Part shown: positions 5,387 to 41,213 of the stretch, piece after piece
Numbering within the stretch: position 1 is the stretch's first letter
Layout: the number at the start of each line of letters is the position of its first letter
Assembly: GCA_037042915.1 (NCBI GenBank)
Contig: CM073193.1
Location: forward strand, 1,488,001-1,552,000
Length of the DNA: 64,000 nucleotides
Direction of reading: 5' to 3'
From: Auricularia sp. M13
Taxonomy: Eukaryota > Basidiomycota > Agaricomycetes > Auriculariales > Auriculariaceae
Made by a program: the position numbers and the translations under genes
Notes under the pieces: model-generated
The model's input: only the letters and a program-made list of their open reading frames with translations
Databases searched by the model: none
Told to the model about the DNA's origin: nothing

Positions 5387-8300
5387 TAAAGCTCCAACCA
5401 TTTACATTAATTACTCATTTAATGTGATTATATTACATTACCAATTACAATAAAATTATTCGAAGCCGTAATTTTTGAGTAATAGGTTGTAATTAATTAT
5501 ATCGAGTTCAAGAGGGCATCCCGCGCTGCCATCCGGGTCCTTTCCGGCAATGCAGGAACCGGACCGGGACCGGCAATCCGCGCTGAGCGTCGCGGGACCA
5601 GACGGTCCAGACCTGGACTTTTGAGCTCAACCTGCGCCGTCGCCGCTAGACTGCCCGTGCTCCTCGGAAACCATCTGCCATACCACTGCATAGAATGAGC
5701 AGCATGCTTGTGCTCTCCTGGCTCGACACTGGTAGCTGTGCTCAATGCACTCTGGCTCCTGCTTGGCTTCGGTGCAACGTGGGACGCGCACCAGCACTGT
5801 CCAGTAACACAGCAGACGATTTCTACGCTCAGCCTTGCAGGCTCACAGGACTCTTGACGCTTCTGTGCCCTCTGGCATGCATTTTCTCGTCTAATAACAC
5901 TGAGGTCAAATAGTCGCTGGTATGTCGTGACCAGCACCGTCCCGCCCGTTTCTCAACGTGGGGAATTGCCTCACTTGTGCTTAATCTCCAACCATCAACA
6001 TTGGACACCTCGTTGCTGCGTAGCTCTGGATTTCTGAGCACTGTGGGTTTGCATGCCGCGTCAATCCGCGCGAACCTCAGTGATGTGCACAAATTTTCGC
6101 AGGCTGCTGCTACTTCTCTCTGACATGCCTGAAGAGCTAACGCGGACATCTGAGGCTCTACCATACTTGTTTATCTATGCCTAGGGACTCTGATGCCTGC
6201 CCTGTGTTTCTAACCTCTTATGTCTATCTTCGGCGGACTCCACCTTCGCCCATGCCTGCTGTGTGCATTTCGTATCAGTATCTGACTTGGAGACACTGTC
6301 ATTTGCTCTTGCTCACTGAGTCCATATAATGCCGAGCAAGTGATCCTTACTTAGCTTCCGGCGACCTGTTCGCGACCGTTCACTCCCACGCATCCGACCG
6401 ACGTCCACGATGGCAGACGACACGCTGCCCGCTAAGCTAGCGCGTCTTCAGATGCTTCTTCACGACCTGCCGCATAGTATCCCAGAAGGCAGCACCTTTT
6501 ATGGATCATCCGACCTCAAAGTCGGCCCTGTCGAGCGCCAGCAAAGCGACGGTACTGAGCTAGGAGCCCTCCACAAGCGGCTTGAGATTGTGTTCGGGCC
6601 GTACACTTCGCCCGATCCTATTCATTTTTTGGAGCGTGGCGAGAGCCTTGAGAACGTCGTCAACGTTTTTCAAGATGCGCTCGCCCGAAATCTGAGCGGC
6701 GACAAGACTATCCTACATGGCTGGGTGGACAGGCTGAGTACATCTGCGCTTGCTGCCTATGCTGCGGCCAACAAGAAGGTGTGCAGTCACTGCATATTCC
6801 TGAATTATTTCCTGAAATCGTTGCAGCCGCCCGCAGAACGTCGCCAGAGCCAGCCGTCGAAGCGTGCCATGCACATGGACATCGATGACGGCGTACAGGA
6901 TCAGCCTGTTCCCGCCAAGCGCAAGGGCACAGTTACCGAATTCCTTCAGCCGCAGGCAACCAAGAAAGCAAAGGCGGTGTCAGGAGCGAAGAAGGCCGCT
7001 ACGTCTGGCGAACTCAGTGAGTGTATCTTGTAGCGACCTTCCCCAGAACTTACAGCAGAACCTGCAGCGCCAGCAACTGCAAGGTCTGCGCCTGCCGCTC
7101 CAAAGGCTGCGCCTGCCGCTTCAAAGACTGTGCCCAAGACCGCCGCTCAAAAGGCCGGAAAGCGCGACACATCCACAAAGGCACTCCTTGCCAATCCGCC
7201 CGACGAGACCGAGCACCACGACGACAGCGATGCCGACTATGCTCCGCCGCGCAAGCCGCTACCCTCCGACGAAGAGATGAGTGACGACGACGAGCTGATG
7301 TTCGATGATCAGACGGTGGGTTTCGTTCTCGCCAAATGATTGAAACTGAGATGAAGCAAAGGACAAGAGAGTAGATGCGGGGAACGGCAAATCCAAGAGC
7401 AATGCCATAGATGTTGACGATGTTTCCGACGGAGAGTCCGCGCTGAAGGCTGTGAACGCGGCGGAGGAGGCAGCAACTGCGAAGGGGATGCGACGTGGAC
7501 CGAAGAATACAACGTTGAGGTTCTGGCAGACCCCCATACAGGTGATCGATAAGGGAGACCTCAAATGGAAGTTCCTCTGCAAGTTCTGCGATTGGTGCGT
7601 GTTTTATGCATTGGAATCGGCTGGAGGTACTGATCTATGATTTATTACAGCGAACGAAAGGTCAAGCGCACGCCGCACTGTGCGAAGTTCGAAGACGAGC
7701 CCAAGCTTCCCAGCCTAACCAATCTCACGTCGCACACAAACGAGAAGCACCAAGACCGCAAAGCCAGTGTAATTGACGCTGAACATTCGGCCGGCACTAT
7801 CGCGCCGCACGGCTACTCGCCCGCTGCAGCTAAGCTCATGGCGCAGTGGCTGGCCGATGGTGCGCTCAATCCAAAGGTTATCAAAACGTATAAGGGATTC
7901 CTGCGTCATTTTGCGGCATGGATCATCGATGAGAACTTGCCATTCAACACGGGTGAGAGCTTCTCGCTCAAGAATCTCTTCAAGTACCTCGACGTCCACT
8001 ACGACCTCCCGTCTGACACAACTGTTCGAAACGAGCTTGCGAGACTTTACCGTGACCTGCACGCAGTTGTTGTCAAGGAGCTGACGGTGCGTGGTTGTAT
8101 ATATTTGCATGTTGAGCGCACTGACCAAAGTAGACTGTGACGTCGCGCATCTCGTATGCGACAGACACATGGACAACGACGCAGAAGATCTTCACCTTCG
8201 CTGGAATCATCGCATCGTTCATTGACAATGACTGGACGCTGATCGAGCGCGTCGTCGACATGGCTGTTCTGGAAGATAATCAGCATGAAGGTGTCCATGC

Positions 8301-10209
8301 GGGAGCGGCGTTCGCAGAGTCAGCGGCCGGTCGCGGGGGATTTAACAAGATGAGTTATTCCTGCTCTTTCTGGTCGCACCTACCTGACGAAAGAAATTAC
8401 ATGCTTGCTCTCACGATGGACAATGCATCGGCCAACGACGTTATGGCCCGGACTATCGGTCTCATCATCCTGAAGCGGTACGGCATTCACCTCCACATGG
8501 ACAACTCCCGCATCCGCTGCCTGCCACATGTTGTCAACATTATTGTTCAGAAGATTCTTTCCGCGCTGGACGAAGCCGACGACCCTGATGAGGTTGATTA
8601 TTACACTGCAGACAAGTCTGCGCCGATACATTATGACCCTGCGACAGACGAAGAACAAGTTGAATATGAGCAGGCTGCTGAGGACGAGGAGAAAAGGTTG
8701 GCTTCCCAGGAGGCCGCAGCTAAGCGACGTGCAAAGGAGGAAGCTCCAGACCCAGGAGCCGTCGTCCAACGCGCGGCCCTCCTGCAGATGATTGCGTCGC
8801 TTCAGCCAAAGGAAGAGACTGTCAACAGTCCAGTGAAGAAGGTCAGTGCTCATCACCCGGTGTTTCTCGCGGTCTCAGTTTGCTGACGGTCATAAAGCTT
8901 CGTCTCATATGCACCAAGATCGTGACAACCCCTCAGCGTCGTGCCAAGTTCCGGCGTCATGTTGCTGCGTGCTTCCCCACAGATGAAGCACTCCATGGTC
9001 TCATGGTCGTTCGCGACGTTGCAACCCGTTGGAACTTCACTCACGCGATGCTTCAACGTGCTCTGCGCCTCGACAAGGTAAGTTCTTTTGCTACTATCAT
9101 ATCTTGCTATCTCATCACTGTAGGCAATCGACGCATGGGTTCTTGAACACCGTGAAGAGCTTGGAAAAAGATCCAGCTGACTGAGGAAGACTGGGAGATG
9201 CTCCGTAACACTGAGGATGTTCTTGGTGTGCGCTCGTCTTCTCTGTCGCTTCCTACTTCAGGCTAATTTTGGCAGATCTTCCCCGAGGTCACCATGTACA
9301 TGTCGCAGGCTGGCCAGCCAACCCTACCATGGGTTCTTCCTATGTACACGCTCATGGAGGCGGAGCTCAAGAAACGGATTGAAAACGAAGATCTTCCTCC
9401 AAAATTGCGCGCGGCAGCATCAGAAGGAATGAAAAAGCTCACGCAATACTTCAATCTCGCAAAGGCATGCCAATACAATTGGCTAGCCACGAGTGCGTAT
9501 AAATTCTTGCAATCGTTCATACACTTACCAACTACACGCAGTGCTGCATCCCGCACTTCGCGGCTGGTGTAACATACATGGGTACGGTGAGAAAGCGTGG
9601 ACGATGCTTGAGCACAGCTTCCAGTCCTACAGTGCAGAGCACGCTGCGAGCGCTCCCAATTCTATGGCGCCTGCTGCACCCATTCCAAAGCACAGTCTCC
9701 TTGACCGTGTTATGGCTGGTGGTGTCGCTCCACCGGTGGAGAGTGCGCCTTTGGCCCCGTTAGGTGACTCTGAGATAGATCGATACCTGCGAGGCTTCGA
9801 CAACGGCTTTGCTCTTGCGGATAACGCGCTGACATGGTGGAAGGTGAGATATGTTACAAACATGCGTTCGGCTCTGACAGTCCGTAGAAAAATGCACGTG
9901 ACTTGCCTGTCCTCGCGCGTATGGCTCGCGACTTTCTTGCGATCCCTGCGTCAAGCGTGTCTGTGGAGCGCCTTTTCTCAGGCTCAGGGGATCTCACGAC
10001 AAAGAAGCGAGCATCCTTGCAGTCAGCCACTATCAGGGAAAGCGTTTGCACAAAGAGCTGGATCCGCGAGGGGTTGATGTATCGTCTTTAGGTGGTCAGC
10101 TCATGTGATACGTGATATAATGCATTATAACCTGTTACAATGAATTACATTACTGAATCCGATTAAATTATTTTTTTCCGTAATGGTAATGTAATTGGTT
10201 GGAGCTTTA
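5387..10209 (+). mobile_element. hAT DNA transposon, copy 1 (4,823 bp)
   Basis: The ends are inverted repeats beginning TAAAGCTCCAACCA, and 22 of the first 23 bases match between ends. AT-rich subterminal stretches carry repeated ATTACATTAC-like words. A perfect 8-bp target duplication (GGTCCCGT) flanks the element. A 1,023-bp leader without recognisable coding precedes one transposase gene (6410-10091). The element is nearly identical to the inverted copy at 20597-25420. Two differences were found by reading: an A-run one base shorter at 9165-9169, and T versus C at 9598 (Trp versus Arg codon). It is therefore very young. Confidence 0.95.
6410..10091 (+). pseudogene. hAT transposase, copy 1 (one frameshift)
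   Basis: Ten exons were inferred: 6410-7016, 7056-7315, 7362-7594, 7651-8086, 8134-8841, 8898-9077, 9124-9227, 9276-9492, 9542-9843, 9888-10091. In order they encode a roughly 290-residue leader region of unknown role, a Lys/Ala/Pro-rich and then acidic stretch, a BED-type zinc finger (CKFC with HTNEKH, about residues 355-400), the RNase-H-like core (ATDTWTT with the first Asp, TMDNASAND with the second, then CLPHVVN), a charged linker, and the C-terminal hAT dimerisation block (SVERLFSGSGDL, near residue 1040). Exon 7 has five A at 9165-9169 where copy 2 has six. This shifts the frame before the dimerisation block, so copy 1 probably makes no full transposase. A miscounted homopolymer is the other explanation. 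Confidence 0.8.
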
Positions 10210-12690: not shown

Positions 12691-14449
12691 CTATACCAAG
12701 TCGGGCCTCATGGCCTCAAGCCTGCTCACGACATCCGCCATCTGCGGGCGATCAGCAGGTTCATGCTTCCAGCACTCCTCAATCAGCGCCCAGCTGTCGT
12801 CTGTGACGCTCTCCTGCAGGTAGTCCTTCCTAAGCGGGCGCGCGCCCTGGTGAACTCTAATGACAACGCCTCCGGGCTGCTTGATGCGGTAGAAAGGCTG
12901 CAGGCCCGAGAGAACGTGTAGCGCAGTCATCGCCCACGCGTACACGTCTGCGGGCGTACCATAGCACGCATAGCTCAGCTCGGGCGCCATCCAGCGCAGC
13001 GACATCTGCGCGCCGTTGCTCAGCGTGAAGCTCGTCTCGGCCCCCAGCGACTCGAGCGCCTTGGCCAGCCCAAAGTCGGCGATGACGGCGCGGTGGTTGT
13101 CGTCCACGAGGATGTTGGTCTAAGGTTCGTTTGGCTCGCGGACGGAGAAAGCGCGATACGCGTACGGGCTGTAATGCGCTGTGTACCATTGGCGGGTCCT
13201 GCCTGTGCAGGTGCGCGAGGCCGCGCGCGACGTCGAGCATCTGTAGGTCTTAGCAACGATTATACGCACGAATAAATTAGGGACGCACAAGTCTCATGCG
13301 GTCGGCATGAGGAAAATGATTGAGATACGCGAGGATATCGCCGTGCTTCATCCAGGGAAAGACGAGATATGTGGAGGGCCCGTCGACGTAGCACACACCA
13401 AACAGCTTGATTATATTGGGATGCTGCACCTTGCGCACCATCTCGATCTGGCGGTGGAAGCGGCGCACGGCACTGCTTTGCGGCGGCGTGTGCGCACTCA
13501 GGCACTTGAGCGCGACGAGAGTGGTGGCGTCACCCAACCAGATACCCTGCCAGATCTCCGCCGTTGTGCTGTAGTGCACCGGCGCGCTGCCGAGCTTTTT
13601 TGCCTCGCCCACAAGGTCCGCTAGCGGGAGCAGTGGCCCGCCTGCAAGTCGTTGCAAGTCACGCAATGTCGTCTGCAGCGCTTCATGCTGCGGCGAGCCG
13701 ACCTCGTACATACGCATGCTCAGCTGCAGCATCCGCATCGAGTCCTCCAAGCTGCCCGCATGCGGAATTGGGTCCGTGTGCGCTATTGGCTTGGGAAGCT
13801 GCTCGAGGACTGCGTGGGTGGGCCGCGAAGATGCGATAGTCTCCATGAGCACGTTGTGGTCGCGTTCCGCCGCCGCCTGAAATTGTGCAGTCCATCGAGC
13901 AAGCCCGAGCTGAGACGTAATCTAAGAAGCTAAATGTGAGGAAGTTTCGATTCTGCCGACTATGAAGACGTACATAGAAGAGCGTCACGCAGTCAGTCAA
14001 CGCTATACGCCGGTCGGTGATGGTCTGCTTGATCTTGTCCTGCTTGAGGACAGAATCCATGACGCCGTACTGAGAGATACGTGTGATCTCTGCTTTTGTC
14101 TCTTCGAGTGTCCTACGAGGAAAATAAGAGTCAGTCTCAGAAAGGATTCAACGGAAGCCGGCGAGTGTACTCCTGCCACATACTTTCTCAGTCTGCTGAT
14201 ACCCTCGCCAATGCGTCTCTCGAGCTGGTCGCGCGCAGGACCGGCAGGCATAGCCAGGACCTCTTCAACATTGCTCTCTAGCACCCCGACAATATCGCGG
14301 CAAAAATCGGCGAGAGTTTGGCACTGTTGCCTGTGGCGCACGACGGCATCCGTCGAGGTGTAGATTGCATTGACAATGCTGACGAGCACTCCAAGCCCGG
14401 GGGTGATGTTACCCACGCTTTCGGCGATATGCAGAGCCTGTTCAACCAT
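12691..14449 (-). CDS. K2: MLKL-like protein, helical-bundle N-terminus plus pseudokinase
   Basis: Exons, read leftward: 14449-14184, 14112-13974, 13921-13289, 13240-13166, 13119-12691; 513 aa, all joins in frame. Residues 1 to about 170 form an all-helical region (VEQALHIAESVGNITPGLGV, then a basic/acidic helix around LEETKAEITRI) of the MLKL_NTD/HeLo adaptor type often placed before TKL kinases in Agaricomycetes. A helical linker follows, then a kinase-fold domain. Catalytic parts are damaged: the glycine loop has no glycines (YSTTAEIWQG), the alphaC Glu is Gln (FHRQIEMV), and HRDLK reads HSALQ, so the catalytic Asp is Ala and the Lys is Gln. VALK, the loop Asn (PTNILVDD), ADFGLAK and MAPEL remain. 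A pseudokinase is predicted. By analogy with MLKL, the bundle could be an effector under control of the pseudokinase; that is inference. Confidence 0.82.
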
Positions 14450-20596: not shown

Positions 20597-23500
20597 TAAA
20601 GCTCCAACCAATTACATTACCATTACGGAAAAAAATAATTTAATCGGATTCAGTAATGTAATTCATTGTAACAGGTTATAATGCATTATATCACGTATCA
20701 CATGAGCTGACCACCTAAAGACGATACATCAACCCCTCGCGGATCCAGCTCTTTGTGCAAACGCTTTCCCTGATAGTGGCTGACTGCAAGGATGCTCGCT
20801 TCTTTGTCGTGAGATCCCCTGAGCCTGAGAAAAGGCGCTCCACAGACACGCTTGACGCAGGGATCGCAAGAAAGTCGCGAGCCATACGCGCGAGGACAGG
20901 CAAGTCACGTGCATTTTTCTACGGACTGTCAGAGCCGAACGCATGTTTGTAACATATCTCACCTTCCACCATGTCAGCGCGTTATCCGCAAGAGCAAAGC
21001 CGTTGTCGAAGCCTCGCAGGTATCGATCTATCTCAGAGTCACCTAACGGGGCCAAAGGCGCACTCTCCACCGGTGGAGCGACACCACCAGCCATAACACG
21101 GTCAAGGAGACTGTGCTTTGGAATGGGTGCAGCAGGCGCCATAGAATTGGGAGCGCTCGCAGCGTGCTCTGCACTGTAGGACTGGAAGCTGTGCTCAAGC
21201 ATCGTCCGCGCTTTCTCACCGTACCCATGTATGTTACACCAGCCGCGAAGTGCGGGATGCAGCACTGCGTGTAGTTGGTAAGTGTATGAACGATTGCAAG
21301 AATTTATACGCACTCGTGGCTAGCCAATTGTATTGGCATGCCTTTGCGAGATTGAAGTATTGCGTGAGCTTTTTCATTCCTTCTGATGCTGCCGCGCGCA
21401 ATTTTGGAGGAAGATCTTCGTTTTCAATCCGTTTCTTGAGCTCCGCCTCCATGAGCGTGTACATAGGAAGAACCCATGGTAGGGTTGGCTGGCCAGCCTG
21501 CGACATGTACATGGTGACCTCGGGGAAGATCTGCCAAAATTAGCCTGAAGTAGGAAGCGACAGAGAAGACGAGCGCACACCAAGAACATCCTCAGTGTTA
21601 CGGAGCATCTCCCAGTCTTCCTCAGTCAGCTGGATCTTTTTTCCAAGCTCTTCACGGTGTTCAAGAACCCATGCGTCGATTGCCTACAGTGATGAGATAG
21701 CAAGATATGATAGTAGCAAAAGAACTTACCTTGTCGAGGCGCAGAGCACGTTGAAGCATCGCGTGAGTGAAGTTCCAACGGGTTGCAACGTCGCGAACGA
21801 CCATGAGACCATGGAGTGCTTCATCTGTGGGGAAGCACGCAGCAACATGACGCCGGAACTTGGCACGACGCTGAGGGGTTGTCACGATCTTGGTGCATAT
21901 GAGACGAAGCTTTATGACCGTCAGCAAACTGAGACCGCGAGAAACACCGGGTGATGAGCACTGACCTTCTTCACTGGACTGTTGACAGTCTCTTCCTTTG
22001 GCTGAAGCGACGCAATCATCTGCAGGAGGGCCGCGCGTTGGACGACGGCTCCTGGGTCTGGAGCTTCCTCCTTTGCACGTCGCTTAGCTGCGGCCTCCTG
22101 GGAAGCCAACCTTTTCTCCTCGTCCTCAGCAGCCTGCTCATATTCAACTTGTTCTTCGTCTGTCGCAGGGTCATAATGTATCGGCGCAGACTTGTCTGCA
22201 GTGTAATAATCAACCTCATCAGGGTCGTCGGCTTCGTCCAGCGCGGAAAGAATCTTCTGAACAATAATGTTGACAACATGTGGCAGGCAGCGGATGCGGG
22301 AGTTGTCCATGTGGAGGTGAATGCCGTACCGCTTCAGGATGATGAGACCGATAGTCCGGGCCATAACGTCGTTGGCCGATGCATTGTCCATCGTGAGAGC
22401 AAGCATGTAATTTCTTTCGTCAGGTAGGTGCGACCAGAAAGAGCAGGAATAACTCATCTTGTTAAATCCCCCGCGACCGGCCGCTGACTCTGCGAACGCC
22501 GCTCCCGCATGGACACCTTCATGCTGATTATCTTCCAGAACAGCCATGTCGACGACGCGCTCGATCAGCGTCCAGTCATTGTCAATGAACGATGCGATGA
22601 TTCCAGCGAAGGTGAAGATCTTCTGCGTCGTTGTCCATGTGTCTGTCGCATACGAGATGCGCGACGTCACAGTCTACTTTGGTCAGTGCGCTCAACATGC
22701 AAATATATACAACCACGCACCGTCAGCTCCTTGACAACAACTGCGTGCAGGTCACGGTAAAGTCTCGCAAGCTCGTTTCGAACAGTTGTGTCAGACGGGA
22801 GGTCGTAGTGGACGTCGAGGTACTTGAAGAGATTCTTGAGCGAGAAGCTCTCACCCGTGTTGAATGGCAAGTTCTCATCGATGATCCATGCCGCAAAATG
22901 ACGCAGGAATCCCTTATACGTTTTGATAACCTTTGGATTGAGCGCACCATCGGCCAGCCACTGCGCCATGAGCTTAGCTGCAGCGGGCGAGTAGCCGTGC
23001 GGCGCGATAGTGCCGGCCGAATGTTCAGCGTCAATTACACTGGCTTTGCGGTCTTGGTGCTTCTCGTTTGTGTGCGACGTGAGATTGGTTAGGCTGGGAA
23101 GCTTGGGCTCGTCTTCGAACTTCGCACAGTGCGGCGTGCGCTTGACCTTTCGTTCGCTGTAATAAATCATAGATCAGTACCTCCAGCCGATTCCAATGCA
23201 TAAAACACGCACCAATCGCAGAACTTGCAGAGGAACTTCCATTTGAGGTCTCCCTTATCGATCACCTGTATGGGGGTCTGCCAGAACCTCAACGTTGTAT
23301 TCTTCGGTCCACGTCGCATCCCCTTCGCAGTTGCTGCCTCCTCCGCCGCGTTCACAGCCTTCAGCGCGGACTCTCCGTCGGAAACATCGTCAACATCTAT
23401 GGCATTGCTCTTGGATTTGCCGTTCCCCGCATCTACTCTCTTGTCCTTTGCTTCATCTCAGTTTCAATCATTTGGCGAGAACGAAACCCACCGTCTGATC

Positions 23501-25420
23501 ATCGAACATCAGCTCGTCGTCGTCACTCATCTCTTCGTCGGAGGGTAGCGGCTTGCGCGGCGGAGCATAGTCGGCATCGCTGTCGTCGTGGTGCTCGGTC
23601 TCGTCGGGCGGATTGGCAAGGAGTGCCTTTGTGGATGTGTCGCGCTTTCCGGCCTTTTGAGCGGCGGTCTTGGGCACAGTCTTTGAAGCGGCAGGCGCAG
23701 CCTTTGGAGCGGCAGGCGCAGACCTTGCAGTTGCTGGCGCTGCAGGTTCTGCTGTAAGTTCTGGGGAAGGTCGCTACAAGATACACTCACTGAGTTCGCC
23801 AGACGTAGCGGCCTTCTTCGCTCCTGACACCGCCTTTGCTTTCTTGGTTGCCTGCGGCTGAAGGAATTCGGTAACTGTGCCCTTGCGCTTGGCGGGAACA
23901 GGCTGATCCTGTACGCCGTCATCGATGTCCATGTGCATGGCACGCTTCGACGGCTGGCTCTGGCGACGTTCTGCGGGCGGCTGCAACGATTTCAGGAAAT
24001 AATTCAGGAATATGCAGTGACTGCACACCTTCTTGTTGGCCGCAGCATAGGCAGCAAGCGCAGATGTACTCAGCCTGTCCACCCAGCCATGTAGGATAGT
24101 CTTGTCGCCGCTCAGATTTCGGGCGAGCGCATCTTGAAAAACGTTGACGACGTTCTCAAGGCTCTCGCCACGCTCCAAAAAATGAATAGGATCGGGCGAA
24201 GTGTACGGCCCGAACACAATCTCAAGCCGCTTGTGGAGGGCTCCTAGCTCAGTACCGTCGCTTTGCTGGCGCTCGACAGGGCCGACTTTGAGGTCGGATG
24301 ATCCATAAAAGGTGCTGCCTTCTGGGATACTATGCGGCAGGTCGTGAAGAAGCATCTGAAGACGCGCTAGCTTAGCGGGCAGCGTGTCGTCTGCCATCGT
24401 GGACGTCGGTCGGATGCGTGGGAGTGAACGGTCGCGAACAGGTCGCCGGAAGCTAAGTAAGGATCACTTGCTCGGCATTATATGGACTCAGTGAGCAAGA
24501 GCAAATGACAGTGTCTCCAAGTCAGATACTGATACGAAATGCACACAGCAGGCATGGGCGAAGGTGGAGTCCGCCGAAGATAGACATAAGAGGTTAGAAA
24601 CACAGGGCAGGCATCAGAGTCCCTAGGCATAGATAAACAAGTATGGTAGAGCCTCAGATGTCCGCGTTAGCTCTTCAGGCATGTCAGAGAGAAGTAGCAG
24701 CAGCCTGCGAAAATTTGTGCACATCACTGAGGTTCGCGCGGATTGACGCGGCATGCAAACCCACAGTGCTCAGAAATCCAGAGCTACGCAGCAACGAGGT
24801 GTCCAATGTTGATGGTTGGAGATTAAGCACAAGTGAGGCAATTCCCCACGTTGAGAAACGGGCGGGACGGTGCTGGTCACGACATACCAGCGACTATTTG
24901 ACCTCAGTGTTATTAGACGAGAAAATGCATGCCAGAGGGCACAGAAGCGTCAAGAGTCCTGTGAGCCTGCAAGGCTGAGCGTAGAAATCGTCTGCTGTGT
25001 TACTGGACAGTGCTGGTGCGCGTCCCACGTTGCACCGAAGCCAAGCAGGAGCCAGAGTGCATTGAGCACAGCTACCAGTGTCGAGCCAGGAGAGCACAAG
25101 CATGCTGCTCATTCTATGCAGTGGTATGGCAGATGGTTTCCGAGGAGCACGGGCAGTCTAGCGGCGACGGCGCAGGTTGAGCTCAAAAGTCCAGGTCTGG
25201 ACCGTCTGGTCCCGCGACGCTCAGCGCGGATTGCCGGTCCCGGTCCGGTTCCTGCATTGCCGGAAAGGACCCGGATGGCAGCGCGGGATGCCCTCTTGAA
25301 CTCGATATAATTAATTACAACCTATTACTCAAAAATTACGGCTTCGAATAATTTTATTGTAATTGGTAATGTAATATAATCACATTAAATGAGTAATTAA
25401 TGTAAATGGTTGGAGCTTTA
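20597..25420 (-). mobile_element. hAT DNA transposon, copy 2 (4,824 bp, looks intact)
   Basis: It has the same terminal repeats (TAAAGCTCCAACCA) and internal sequence as copy 1 but in reverse orientation, with its own target duplication TCCGCCGG on each side. It is one base longer than copy 1 because of a six-base homopolymer at 21637-21642. Both ends and the whole transposase frame are present, so this copy could be autonomous. Confidence 0.95.
20715..24397 (-). CDS. hAT transposase, copy 2 (open across ten exons)
   Basis: The exon structure mirrors copy 1; its coordinates are about 30807 minus those of copy 1. The ten exons sum to 3,252 nt, giving a 1,083-aa protein with no internal stop, because the A-run in exon 7 (21637-21642 on the plus strand) keeps frame. 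Domains in order: leader region, acidic/basic low-complexity stretch, BED zinc finger, catalytic RNase-H-like fold with Asp in ATDTWTT and in TMDNASAND, CLPHVVN, charged linker, and the dimerisation block VSVERLFSGSGDL. It would act in the nucleus on the 14-bp terminal repeats. A TATAAT-like word lies about 80 bp before the start. It differs from copy 1 by Arg for Trp in exon 9 (base 21208). Confidence 0.9.
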
Positions 25421-25970: not shown

Positions 25971-27467
25971 TCAGTTTGCACCACCAGGGTGCAGGCAAGT
26001 CTGAATTGCCCGATGATGTAAGTTTGAGAAAGGGATTGTGCGATCGCGTTTGAATCTCGCAATCATATCCGCGGAAGGCACAAACATCTTGACGGACTTG
26101 AATACCTCCAGGACACGACTTGCGTAGGCCGCTAATATCTCTGACGACTCAGTCGTCGATGTAAGAGCAAATAATCGGCGCTTGGGCGAAAGGTGCTTCA
26201 GTTCATCGACTGAGAGCGGAAAGACTTTATGACGATCTGATCCTCGGCCATTATAAAGTGATTCATAGGAGTCCCAGAACTGACGTCGTAAAGCCTCAAT
26301 GCGAGAGTCACAGCAACCAAAAAGAGAGTGTAATGTATCCTCGGTTGCTGATAGGCAGAGACGGCAAAGACGAAGCTCCCGATCAGGCACTACGGTACGA
26401 CGGCGCAGCATCTCTGAGGCCAGGATATGGTCAGAGAGCAATAGACCTGTCAAGGCACGACGGTGGGGTTCGTGTCGGATGCGTAGGTACGCCCGGAACT
26501 CCATGATAGCGGCAGGCTTGGAGCCGCTGTCATCAAAGATCTCACGACCGTGCAGCAGGTCCTGGCGCGAGCTGTTGTACAGTTCGTGTTTCAAGAACTT
26601 GTACATCGCTGTCTTTGTTCTGGACATCAGCATTTCGACATGGGACTGGCTAGGATGAGTTGCCAGTGTCAGACCGATGGATCGAAGGGCGTCCCGAAGT
26701 TGGGAGAACCATCCCCGAGAGTTCTGTGCAGTAGCGGCAAGGGAGTCCCTAAGCGCTTTCGCAGCAAGATGCGACTCCGGAAGTCCGAGGACATAATGTA
26801 GGTACCGTAATTGTAGATGAATACGACGGTATCGGATGGGCCACAGTCCGGTTTCTGTGAATAGCACACACAGCTGAGAGCGCTTCTGAAGACCCAGCAA
26901 GCGCCTCAAGTATGTGTGTTGGACATCTTCCAGCTGCTCCAGCTGTTGCAGGGTGCCCACACCTGATACCTCACATCCCCAGGTCAGATGCGGGTCGACA
27001 TGGGCTGTGTAAAGTTTGCGGCCGTCCGCGGGGGAGAGTTTACCAATGTGGGACTCAACGAAGAAGGTAACATTGGCTGCCCGTTTTGCGCGCAGTGCAC
27101 AGGCCTGGATGTGTGCGTCCCACATATTGCCAGCCTTGCTGCAAAATGTGATGCCTACGTAAGGCTGTTGTGTAACAACACGCAGGGGCTGTCCATAAAT
27201 TGAGAATGAAGACTGGCAAGTTACATTGGAGCGAGGTGGTTTCAGAATCATAACGACAGTCTTTGATAAATTGACTTTCATTTGGTTCTGTGAGGCCCAG
27301 AGCGCCAGGTCATTCAGCTTGGCTTGTAGACCCTGTGCAGACGAGGAGAACAACGCTATGTCGTCCGCATGCAGAGGGCAATTCTGGATGATGACTCGGC
27401 AGGTCCCGCGTTTTCTAAATTTGTCTTGCATATGGATACTACATAGTAAGCATATTTTGTACCACAA
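25971..27467 (-). mobile_element. non-LTR retrotransposon (LINE), 5'-truncated
   Basis: A single open frame of 498 codons covers the C-terminal half of a LINE polymerase. It starts just before the catalytic box C (HADDIALFSSS, a variant of YADD), then the thumb (QMKVNLSKTVVMIL, YVGITFCSKAG), a long C-terminal domain, and a CCHC-like finger (CRLCLSATEDTLHSLFGC, about residues 365-382). The endonuclease and the polymerase boxes before C are absent, as expected for a copy cut short at its 5' end during target-primed insertion. The surviving part is open, so it is fairly young or conserved. It cannot move by itself. Confidence 0.8.
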
Positions 27468-27537
27468 TTCAATCTGGAATGCTAATACAGATTCTATATG
27501 TAATGCGAGTGATTGTAGACCAAGAAAAGTATTGGGA

Positions 27538-29755
27538 TTACCAAGGGCTTACACGATCGTCCAAGTACCATATGCGAACAGACCCAGACGAGGAGCCCGA
27601 CACTAGACTTTTTCCATCCGGGGAAAAGGAAACGGAATACACCCATTCTTTGAAAACTTTCATTGGCTCTCCAACCGCCCTCCCAGACTCCACATCCCAG
27701 AGCCGAATAGTTCCATCGTCGGAACCGGATGCGATGAGCCGGCCTGAAGGCGAAACAGCAATGGATCTGACCCAATTGGCATGTTCTGGCGCGAAGGTCT
27801 TATGAAGCTGGTGCGTAACCAGGTTCCACATCCTCACAGTACAATCGTAGGAAGCAGAGGCGATGTAATCGCCCCGGGGAAGGTAGCAGACAGAGCTCAC
27901 ACCGCCGTCATGCCCGCGGAGGATCGTCGAGGCGTCGCCAGCGCCAGCACGCCAGATACGAATGGTTTTATCGGTCGATCCAGATGCAATGCATGTGTCA
28001 TCGGGAGACCACGCCACGCATTGGACAGATCGATCGTGTCCTTTCATGAGTACGATGACCTTCCCTGTAGCTACCTCCCACAAGCGCAGAGTTTTGTCAT
28101 TGGAGCCTGAGACCAGCCATATCCCATGGTGGGAGTAGGCAACACACAAGACGGGGCCGGTGTCTTGGCCGGTCATGGGCTGCCCGATCAGCGCACGAGA
28201 GTCTGGATCCCAGAGGCAAACCTTGCCGTCGCCACACGACGCGATCTGCCGACCGTTCGGAGAGATAGCCACACACCGAACATAGTTCATGTGGTCCCGC
28301 ACGCGGACGATGGTAATTGTACCAGATACGACGTCGAACACGCGAATGATGCCCTCGCCGGAGCTGGCGACCACGTGGGTTCCGCACCCCGTGTAAGCGA
28401 CCGAGCAGACCTCAGAGCTAGGCGGATTGAGGAGGCAGCCTAACCCGGCAGCGTCAGTACCTCAGCTCGGTGTACATACAGAACTGAACCCACGTTGTGC
28501 CACACAACGATTTGCCTGTTTTGATAGTCCGGGTTTCAACACCAGCACCCAGAACACACGAGATCCAGCGTACCTCAAGCTCCCTCAACACGGCCTTCAT
28601 CGCTGGACGTTCTCCTGGTTCAAATTTCCAGCTTTTGAGACAGACAGACCACCATGCATCGCTCAAGCCTAAGAGCGTTGCATCATCTGATGGGCGGCGA
28701 TGGACTTCGCGCGAGTATATCTTCACATAGACGGCTCCATCGCTAACGTCGGGCCACGGATGTGTACCTGTGAATGCCTGCAAGCACTATCAGCACGAAT
28801 TGCGGGCCTGATGTCCAGCAGAAAACAGACCTGAACAACAAGCATACCGAACGCGTAAACATCACTTTTCGTGGTCTTTGAGCGCGGCCGAACGCGTGCT
28901 TCGTCATTGGGCAGATTCGCCCTGGGCTGCTGCGGATCAAAGAGCAATTCTGGTGCTGCAAATCGGGGCGTATGCATCCTTCTGATACTCGTGGCCGTCG
29001 TGACACTTGATTCTTCCTTTTCGACGAGGGTGGTGAGCCCGAAGTCAGCTAGCACTGCGTTACACTCGTCGTCGATAAGCACATTCTCCTGAGATAGAGG
29101 AAGTAAGCGATGAAGGCCGAGCATCTGGGGACTTTGAGATTGACGGACGCATTTGAGGTCTCCGTGGACAAGTCCCTCGCTTTCATGTAGCCAGCATACT
29201 GCTCTTGCGACCTGGATGAGCTGAACCCCCGCAGCGCTCAGTCGACCAATTCCAATTTGCGTAAAGTTGACGCACCAGATGTTGGCGGTTCGCAGTGGGC
29301 GCTTTCTTAAGATACTGTAGCATATTTCCGTTCCGCATGAGCTCAGAGACGATGATCGTGTAGAAGCCCCAGGTCGCCGTGCCGATGAACGGGAGGACGT
29401 GTTGGGGCGAGGGCTGGCTCGCCAGGTGCAGCCGAGTGATCGCCTTCAATTCTCTGCAAATCAACTGGCTCGAAGGAAGGACGAGAAAGAGTAATCAGCC
29501 GGGGAACCCAGAAGTTACTCGACGCACCTTTTGCAGTCGGTCGTTCATGACCTGTATCACTTTCAGCGCGACCTTTTGCGGGTTATGTGGGTGCTGAACG
29601 ACCCCCTCGTAGAGTCTAGCAGTTCCGCCGCAGTCAAAGGAGATCCCAGATGGGAGCAGGACGTGCAGCTGTTCATTGTTGGCGAACGCGTTCACTGAGA
29701 TGGTAGTCCCAGCTTCGATGCAGCCTGCGGATAAAACTGTCGGTTCCGCGGCCAT
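27538..29755 (-). CDS. K4: kinase-WD40 fusion protein
   Basis: Read leftward, a complete kinase domain is followed by a seven-bladed WD40 propeller. Kinase: VALKVIQV, alphaC Glu in CRELKAI, HGDLKC then ENVLIDD, LADFGLTTL, AAPELL, KSDVYAFGMLVVQ, RPAMKAVLRELE; all catalytic residues are present and the loop Lys is kept, unlike the neighbouring kinases. WD blades end IIRVFD, KVCLWD, TLRLWE, TIRIWR, TVRMWN, TIRLWD, SVRIWY. The linker splice (about 28,590 to 28,420) joins in frame if the acceptor is CTCTGAG near 28,410, but it is not proven. Two separate genes are possible, though no promoter gap is seen. An upstream in-frame ATG exists at 29887. The propeller would be the partner-binding part. 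Confidence 0.75.
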
Positions 29756-39815: not shown

Positions 39816-41213
39816 ATGTCCAATCTTACGAACATGTTCCCTCGCCGACAGTTTCGCAATGAGGAAGACTTGAAAGTCGCTGTGCGCCAGCGCATGGTGG
39901 GTCTGTCGATGATCACCGAGTTCAACGACTAACGTTCGGGATCCAGGCAGACGGCAATGAGGACAGGAATGACGCCTTTCACCTCTGCGGTCTATCATCA
40001 ATACTCTCGTCGGTTTATGGTGGTACGCGCGTTTGCTTTCGTCAGAGCTCTTTGTGTTGATGAACGCGTATCACCCAGGTTTCCACTCGTTTTGGTACTG
40101 GACGCGTTTAGGAAATGCGTCGGGCCCAGAAGCCTCTTCCTGGATGCGCGAAAAGGGCTCACCCGAGCCAGAATCACGCTCGCTGGTAGTCCCCGACCTC
40201 ACACCTTATATAAAGTTCGACGGTCAACGCCCATTCGCCATTAGCCCTTGCTCCGACTTGTACAAGCCCAAGCTTTTAAACGAGTACACCGTCGTAGCGC
40301 GACGAATTCGTTTCCAGGACGACGATGGCAATGGTGTCAGTTCTTTCAAACGATTGAGCGCTTGGTTCCAACTCACGTAGTATTTTAGGACGCCGAGCTC
40401 GTGAAAACTTCCAAGAGGCTCATGAGAGCTCTCGACGCGAACGTGCTTTGCTACCTTGGAACTTGCAATTTCGAGGGTAGCTTGTGCATTGTAACCCCAT
40501 TCGCTGCCGGCGGTGACCTCAAAAAGCACATCGCAGCGCATCCTGATTGCAACCGCAGGGATCTGGTATGTTTGGACATGCGGATGCGATGTGACATATC
40601 TATCTGACAGCATGTGTAGCTGTCTCAAGTTGCCAAGGGCCTCGAATATCTGCACCAGAACGATATAGTGCACGGAAATCTGCATCCAGTAAGGACATTT
40701 CTTCATATTCGACTGCTCCGTTATTGCTCATCTGTAACTTTGCAGCGCAACGTTTTGCTCTCCGAGGATGGGACTGTGAAACTCTCAGAATTCGGCCTTT
40801 TCGACCTCATTCCTGACGAAGGATCGACGTCAATGCGCCCAAGCCACGGTCGTGAGAAGGCAATTCACCGTGCGCCAGAGGTTCACATGGGAGCGGTCTT
40901 CTCTCCTGCCTGTGACGTTTACTCGCTCGGAATGCTCACCTTCTCTGCCTACTGCGACAAAGAGCCGATGATCGAGCGCAGCCCCGGCACAATCCAGGTG
41001 GCAGCAGCGTTACTTGCTGGCCGTCGCCCCGAACGCGGAGAGATCACCAGGTCTGATTTCTCGGACGACCTTTGGAGCCTGACACAGCTGTGTTGGGCGC
41101 ATGACAAGGAGATGAGGCCATCAATGAGGGATGTGACCGCGGAATTTCTCTTCCCCGCGCGCTCATGTACTCACAAGTCCCTTCTGAGTGCACGGAAGGG
41201 TCTGCGTGATTAG
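39816..41213 (+). CDS. K5: predicted pseudokinase of the TKL-like family
   Basis: Exons 39816-39896, 39947-39989, 40046-40335, 40389-40565, 40620-40688, 40746-41213; 375 aa, in frame throughout. Intron 1 has a clean CTAAC branch site, and a TATA-like TTTAAATA lies about 25 bp before the ATG. After an N-terminal part of about 120 residues (with RPFAISPCSDLY, shared with K7) comes a kinase fold with the key residues changed: beta-3 Lys is Arg (VVARRIRF), alphaC Glu is Thr (LVKTSKRL), HRD Asp is Asn (HGNLHPRNVLL), and DFG reads SEFG. The C-lobe is well kept (HRAPEVHMG, CDVYSLGMLTF, RPSMRDV). It is not a decayed gene: frame and splice sites are whole. It may serve as scaffold or regulator. Paralogue: K7. 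Confidence 0.85.

Follow-up and report, generated by a model that had tools for sequence, protein, structure and literature searches.

A conserved pseudokinase gene with an MLKL-like helical N-terminus in Auricularia sp. M13, a candidate fungal relative of MLKL

Animal MLKL, the executor of necroptosis, consists of a four-helix bundle, a brace and a pseudokinase; it lacks the Asp of the HRD motif and has kept the VAIK Lys. Phosphorylation of its pseudokinase frees a membrane-targeting helical bundle (passages of PMC12881547). In plants, a helical bundle (MLKL_NTD/HeLo/DUF1221) is likewise joined to a kinase fold, and the two described forms differ in their catalytic residues: the AtMLKLs are pseudokinases like animal MLKL, whereas Pm13, with the same layout, has all key kinase residues (passages of PMC10951266). 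Fungi as well as plants have MLKL homologues, among them the Basidiobolus meristosporus protein ORX91397.1, which is treated as MLKL (passages of PMC11476962), and members of the family in Glomeromycotina, which carry Sel1 repeats (passages of PMC8778642). The fungal HeLo and HeLo-like domains (e.g. of HET-S and HELLP) and the BaMLKL domains of NLRs are described as one helical-bundle superfamily (passages of PMC9815663 and PMC12881547), with about 600 MLKL-like N-termini of NLRs in basidiomycetes (PMC9815663, in part). HET-S and HELLP are necroptosis-like executors driven by amyloid templating from NLRs; the passages that deal with them describe no phosphorylation-gated fungal executor, and PMC12881547 urges a broader exploration of HeLo and four-helix-bundle proteins in fungi.

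Here, we describe K2, a gene in the window (the whole stretch of 64,000 nucleotides that was analysed, G000:C1:1488001-1552000), and its relatives in the genome searched (52 Mb, 14 contigs), namely the paralogue K2b (G000:C1:8073634-8075417, plus strand, 6.6 Mb from K2 and 80% identical to it) and the more distant sister genes K3 and K4. K2 was proposed in an earlier note to be an intact five-exon gene of MLKL-like architecture, and the gene model agrees: on the minus strand, from 14449 to 12691, five exons encode 513 amino acids and a stop, with no internal stop and four of four introns of GT-AG type (71, 52, 48 and 46 bp). Its parts, in window coordinates, are as follows.

12691..14449, minus strand: K2 gene, encoding an MLKL_N-type helical domain, a helical brace and a pseudokinase (gene model and conserved paralogue)
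14184..14449, minus strand: exon 1, residues 1-88 and part of 89 (gene model; intron 1 common to K2b and K3)
13983..14392, minus strand: MLKL_N (PF22215) match, residues 20-132, crossing intron 1 (Pfam scan, 28.3 bits for residues 1-167)
13974..14112, minus strand: exon 2, 139 nt, up to residue 135 (exon 2 also 139 nt with a phase 0 end in K2b and K3)
13289..13921, minus strand: exon 3, residues 136-346, brace helices and kinase N-lobe (gene model)
13544..13576, minus strand: degenerate glycine loop HYSTTAEIWQG, residues 251-261 (translation and alignment)
13505..13507, minus strand: VALK Lys274, kept (translation)
13448..13450, minus strand: Gln293, replacing the alphaC Glu (translation and alignment)
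13166..13240, minus strand: exon 4, residues 347-371, with the HSALQP catalytic-loop remnant (gene model; shared donor position)
13166..13183, minus strand: HSALQP, residues 366-371, replacing HRDLKx (translation, alignment and intron comparison)
12691..13119, minus strand: exon 5, residues 372-513, with DFG, APE, C-lobe and stop (gene model)
13069..13077, minus strand: DFG, residues 386-388, kept (translation)
12979..12987, minus strand: APE, residues 416-418, kept (translation)

K2 thus follows animal MLKL in the order of its parts, with a sequence-related N-terminal domain and a C-terminal pseudokinase, and differs from it in keeping DFG and in the loss of both the alphaC Glu and the glycines of the loop. 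Compared with HeLo proteins, HELLP and the BaMLKL-NLRs, it matches MLKL_N and not PF14479 or PF17111, and it has a pseudokinase and no NOD. The plant MLKLs and Pm13 (PMC10951266, in part) and the Basidiobolus and Glomeromycotina homologues (PMC11476962 and PMC8778642, in part) were likened to K2 by their published descriptions. As in the FslK/TKL expansions of Agaricomycetes (passages of PMC3937382 and PMC2838846), K2 stands among several TKL-type kinases; FslK members, however, are described as mostly lacking additional domains and as retaining every kinase subdomain (PMC3937382, in part), whereas K2 combines a helical domain with degenerate catalysis. Among the literature matches listed, a scope mostly outside subscription journals, there was no description of K2 and no tested fungal bundle-pseudokinase. 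Fusions of a bundle to a (pseudo)kinase have already been noted for fungi in the literature, and K2 adds to a known kind.

K2 is probably, if well short of certainly, a functional and conserved fungal relative of MLKL, acting as an MLKL-type membrane executor gated by its own pseudokinase. By analogy with MLKL, we infer a sequence of events in which, in the resting cell, the TKL-type pseudokinase, which lies downstream of bundle and brace and ends the protein, would hold the helical domain together with the brace. A separate kinase would then phosphorylate the Ser/Thr-rich activation segment (LGAETSFTLSNGAQMSLRW, with five Ser/Thr, four of the five kept in K2b), or a partner would bind; the pseudokinase would change shape and free the helical domains, and these would assemble into oligomers that make the plasma membrane permeable, so that the hyphal compartment dies as part of a response to non-self or to a pathogen. 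The autoinhibition, the attack on the membrane, the trigger and the biological setting are all modelled on the animal protein.

The main rival, which we consider unlikely but deserving of serious attention, is that K2 is a non-lytic regulator, in which the helical domain would serve only for oligomerisation or docking and the pseudokinase would be a scaffold, decoy or allosteric partner of K3, K4 or other kinases of the cluster. Pseudokinases often serve as scaffolds. The most hydrophobic 19-residue stretch of the K2 N-terminus has a mean of 1.55 (Kyte-Doolittle), modest for a membrane-spanning helix, a point in favour of a non-lytic role that is offset by the membrane-active bundle of MLKL, which is not known to be strongly hydrophobic either. 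The sister genes bear on both sides of the question. An exon-by-exon search found at least four bundle-kinase genes in the genome (K2, K2b, K3 and K4), of which K3 lies on the minus strand from C1:5836000 (modelled to 5834487) and K4 on the plus strand from C3:816453, with a more distant N-terminus that was found by K3 at E 8.2e-6. Read by eye from hand-spliced models, K3 and K4 both keep HGDLK, DFG, the VA(I/V)K Lys and the alphaC Glu, and each has two of the three loop glycines (D-S-G-G-F-G in K3, G-S-G-A-H-S in K4), so that both are predicted, on these models, to be active kinases. Since related N-termini also occur on proteins with HGDLK, a pseudokinase is no necessary companion of the N-terminal domain, which favours the regulator. 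Against it, K2 and K2b stop right after the kinase, as in the MLKL layout, unlike K3 and K4, in which the frame runs on.

The contrast between genes with and without the key kinase residues (K3 and K4 versus K2 and K2b) parallels that between Pm13 and AtMLKL. In a kinase-domain tree of ten rows, K2, K2b, K3 and K4 were split from six window kinases with moderate support (93/90, below the tool's starred level), and K3 grouped with K4 (91/90); the simplest history of the family would be a loss of catalysis in the line of K2 and K2b. Beyond the kinase, the C-terminal extension of K3 (G000:C1:5832500-5839500) resembles, by eye, a LamG/concanavalin-like fold, and K4 (G000:C3:814500-821500) has a long, probably disordered Ser/Pro-rich stretch followed by an open frame that looks ARM/HEAT-like by eye. 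A further gene, with an NB-ARC domain (G000:C10:1022500-1029500), has N-terminal exons that weakly resemble the K3 bundle (E 0.0102) and contain an in-frame TAG; it is possibly a bundle-NLR.

The kinase domain of K2 (PF07714, PK_Tyr_Ser-Thr, residues 255-505 of 513, 141.8 bits in a Pfam scan) is degenerate at several positions. A full-length profile searched against PDB found, in the best 60 of 999 rows, generic TK/TKL kinases (e.g. EGFR, CTR1, TNNI3K, ABL and RIPK2). The earlier note had listed the catalytic Asp and Lys, the alphaC Glu and the glycine-loop glycines as lost, and this description needs amending at one residue: HRDLKxxN reads H366-SALQP-T-N373, with Asp and Lys gone and Asn373 kept, but the VALK Lys274 is still present. 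No glycine is left at the GxGxxG positions, where the three aligned glycines of K3 have become Ser253, Thr254 and Ala256. K2b, the sole paralogue found, shows the same losses, with HYSTTAEIWQG, RQI (again a replaced alphaC Glu) and HSAMQP for the HSALQP of K2, so that the HSA change, whose conservation the earlier note had put up for checking, is kept in this one paralogue. Judged by these residues, K2 is a pseudokinase. It is very unlikely to be an unorthodox active kinase with the missing residues replaced from elsewhere: some presumed pseudokinases proved active, and Lys274, Asn373, DFG and APE would in principle allow nucleotide binding, but Asp, catalytic-loop Lys, alphaC Glu and loop glycines have all been lost together, and in both copies.

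Evidence for the origin of the N-terminal domain comes from profiles, introns and predicted structure. Residues 1-167 of K2 exceed the cut-off of the Pfam family MLKL_N by a narrow margin (PF22215; 28.3 bits, E 1.5e-6, cut-off 27), whereas the whole protein falls just under it (25.0 bits). K2b behaves in the same way (N-terminus 29.2 bits, E 7.6e-7; whole protein 25.8), and K3 is above the cut-off both with its N-terminus (40.4 bits, E 2.7e-10) and with the whole model (36.1). For the K4 N-terminus, neither MLKL_N (searched to E 1) nor any other Pfam family gave a match. The relation to HeLo/HELL domains that had been suggested was not recovered by profile: HeLo (PF14479) and PigL_N (PF17111) had no match in K2 at E up to 10 (HMMER filters drop most matches above 0.1), and a six-frame search of the genome to E 1, which is weak across introns, brought up none either. 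DUF1221, for its part, had no match in K2 at E up to 10 and a sub-threshold one in the K3 N-terminus (20.2 bits, cut-off 25). K2 and K3 are themselves related in this region (29% identity over 140 residues, E 5e-18 in a single comparison), and K2, K2b and K3 agree in the alignment column and the phase of intron 1, with intron 2 likewise common to K2 and K3 in place and phase; K4 has an intron of the phase of K2 intron 1 within about two alignment columns, plus a further intron of its own.

Searched against PDB, a profile of the four N-termini (K2, K2b, K3 and K4) placed MLKL in the top seven of 20 rows (E 4.8e-6 to 0.0011), the best being mouse MLKL (4btf, E 4.8e-6), aligned over chain residues 9-156, which comprise bundle and brace. 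The same profile reversed, as a control, matched a designed coiled coil over a 48-residue stretch at E 1.1e-5. Helical composition alone can therefore yield an E near 1e-5, and E-values by themselves are not proof; the weight of the four-member profile lies in the identity of the seven MLKL rows and in their full-length register. With K2 alone there were no PDB matches and with K2 and K2b together three rows, none of them MLKL, whereas the best row for K3 alone was mouse MLKL (E 0.07), and the MLKL link thus leans on Pfam and on K3. AlphaFold without an alignment predicted an all-helical N-terminus, as the earlier note had expected, both for the whole of K2 (with helices linking bundle and kinase; pLDDT 43, low confidence) and, with middling confidence, for residues 1-167 (pLDDT 62.6, pTM 0.57; helices 2-13, 17-31, 36-65, 71-103, 109-139 and 143-166). 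Bundle, brace and a protein-ending kinase fold follow one another in K2 as sequence domains, the linking helices being predicted at low confidence. Taken as composition only, the MLKL likeness would leave K2 as a TKL pseudokinase whose coiled-coil N-terminus has another origin; we give this little credence. The marginal MLKL_N score of K2, the coiled-coil match of the reversed profile and fold searches in which the middling model of residues 1-167 returned generic bundles fit that reading, but MLKL_N was matched separately by three N-termini and by none of the three reversed ones (K2, K2b and K3), the seven leading rows of the forward profile all belong to MLKL and align in register from end to end of the domain, and the homology of K2 and K3 is backed by their shared introns. 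Homology of the K2 N-terminus to the four-helix bundle of MLKL is supported by these comparisons.

Whether the exon that carries HSALQP is retained depends on a rival donor at 13186, the use of which would remove VHSALQP and keep the frame. The donor after HSALQP has the same codon position in six of six tabulated window kinases; the printed sequence of a seventh, near 4.1 kb, shows it too, and K2b has a GTAAGC donor at the equivalent site. In K3, the intron at the catalytic loop lies one codon earlier, and K4 has none there. That nearby kinases have their donor at this position speaks for the catalytic-loop exon and favours its retention in K2 transcripts. Exon lengths are identical in K2 and K2b (266, 139, 633, 75 and 429), and dN/dS between the two (Nei-Gojobori) is 0.22 over the whole gene (dS 0.58), 0.22 for residues 1-135 and 0.20 for residues 241-513, the kinase part; for residues 360-385 it is 0.05, a rough value from only about eight substitutions (6.5 synonymous and 1.5 other changes). 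Identical exon lengths, the same losses and this ratio point to a conserved pseudokinase, and the presence of another conserved copy in this genome speaks against an accidental loss of catalysis; with the losses shared, the pseudokinase state is most likely older than the duplication and has been held by selection. Decay of the gene, or an error in its predicted splicing, is hardly credible as an explanation of K2: two near-identical mobile elements flank it and the alternative donor would drop the catalytic loop, but all exons are open, and exon lengths, dN/dS and intron position are those of a maintained gene.

The surroundings of K2 have features of their own. The two mobile elements, of 4.8 kb each (window 5387-10209 and 20597-25420, in opposite orientation), enclose K2, an F-box gene and a kinase, and are 100% identical to each other over two blocks, which are offset by one base. 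Both have terminal inverted repeats starting TAAAGCTCCAACC and an 8-bp target-site duplication of their own (GGTCCCGT and TCCGCCGG), and the first 1000 bases recur, 100% identical, at a third site, on C7. The 8-bp duplications suggest hAT-like elements, which look recently active; three frames of the element had no Pfam match over the cut-off. K2 had been placed among active kinases, and this is true in part: HGD was read in five of the seven other window kinases and HGN in two. The kinases at 40389-41210 (+) and 56873-55524 (-), which are 56% identical, have HGN for HGD, and the former also has EFG for DFG; they likely form a second, separate pseudokinase pair in the cluster. At 29494-27544 (-), a kinase with HGDLK runs directly into an open frame of WD40 repeats (224.8 bits), possibly as one kinase-WD40 protein, and is adjoined by a reverse-transcriptase-like frame (25977-27548) with a Pfam match below the cut-off.

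As a probable MLKL-type executor, K2 is a good candidate for a fungal cell-death switch, in which the killing itself would follow the example of MLKL. New here are a conserved second copy and sister genes that appear to keep the catalytic residues, all in one genome. A bolder proposal, and to our minds a doubtful one, is that these genes form a complete fungal equivalent of the RIPK3-MLKL pair within one family, with K3 and K4 as activators or sensors and K2 and K2b as dedicated pore-forming executors. If this were true, fungi would have acquired or retained a kinase-gated necroptosis alongside the HeLo route with its amyloid/NLR gating. K2 and K2b, together with K3 and K4, provide a concrete set of genes with which to examine whether gating of the MLKL type occurs in organisms other than animals and plants.
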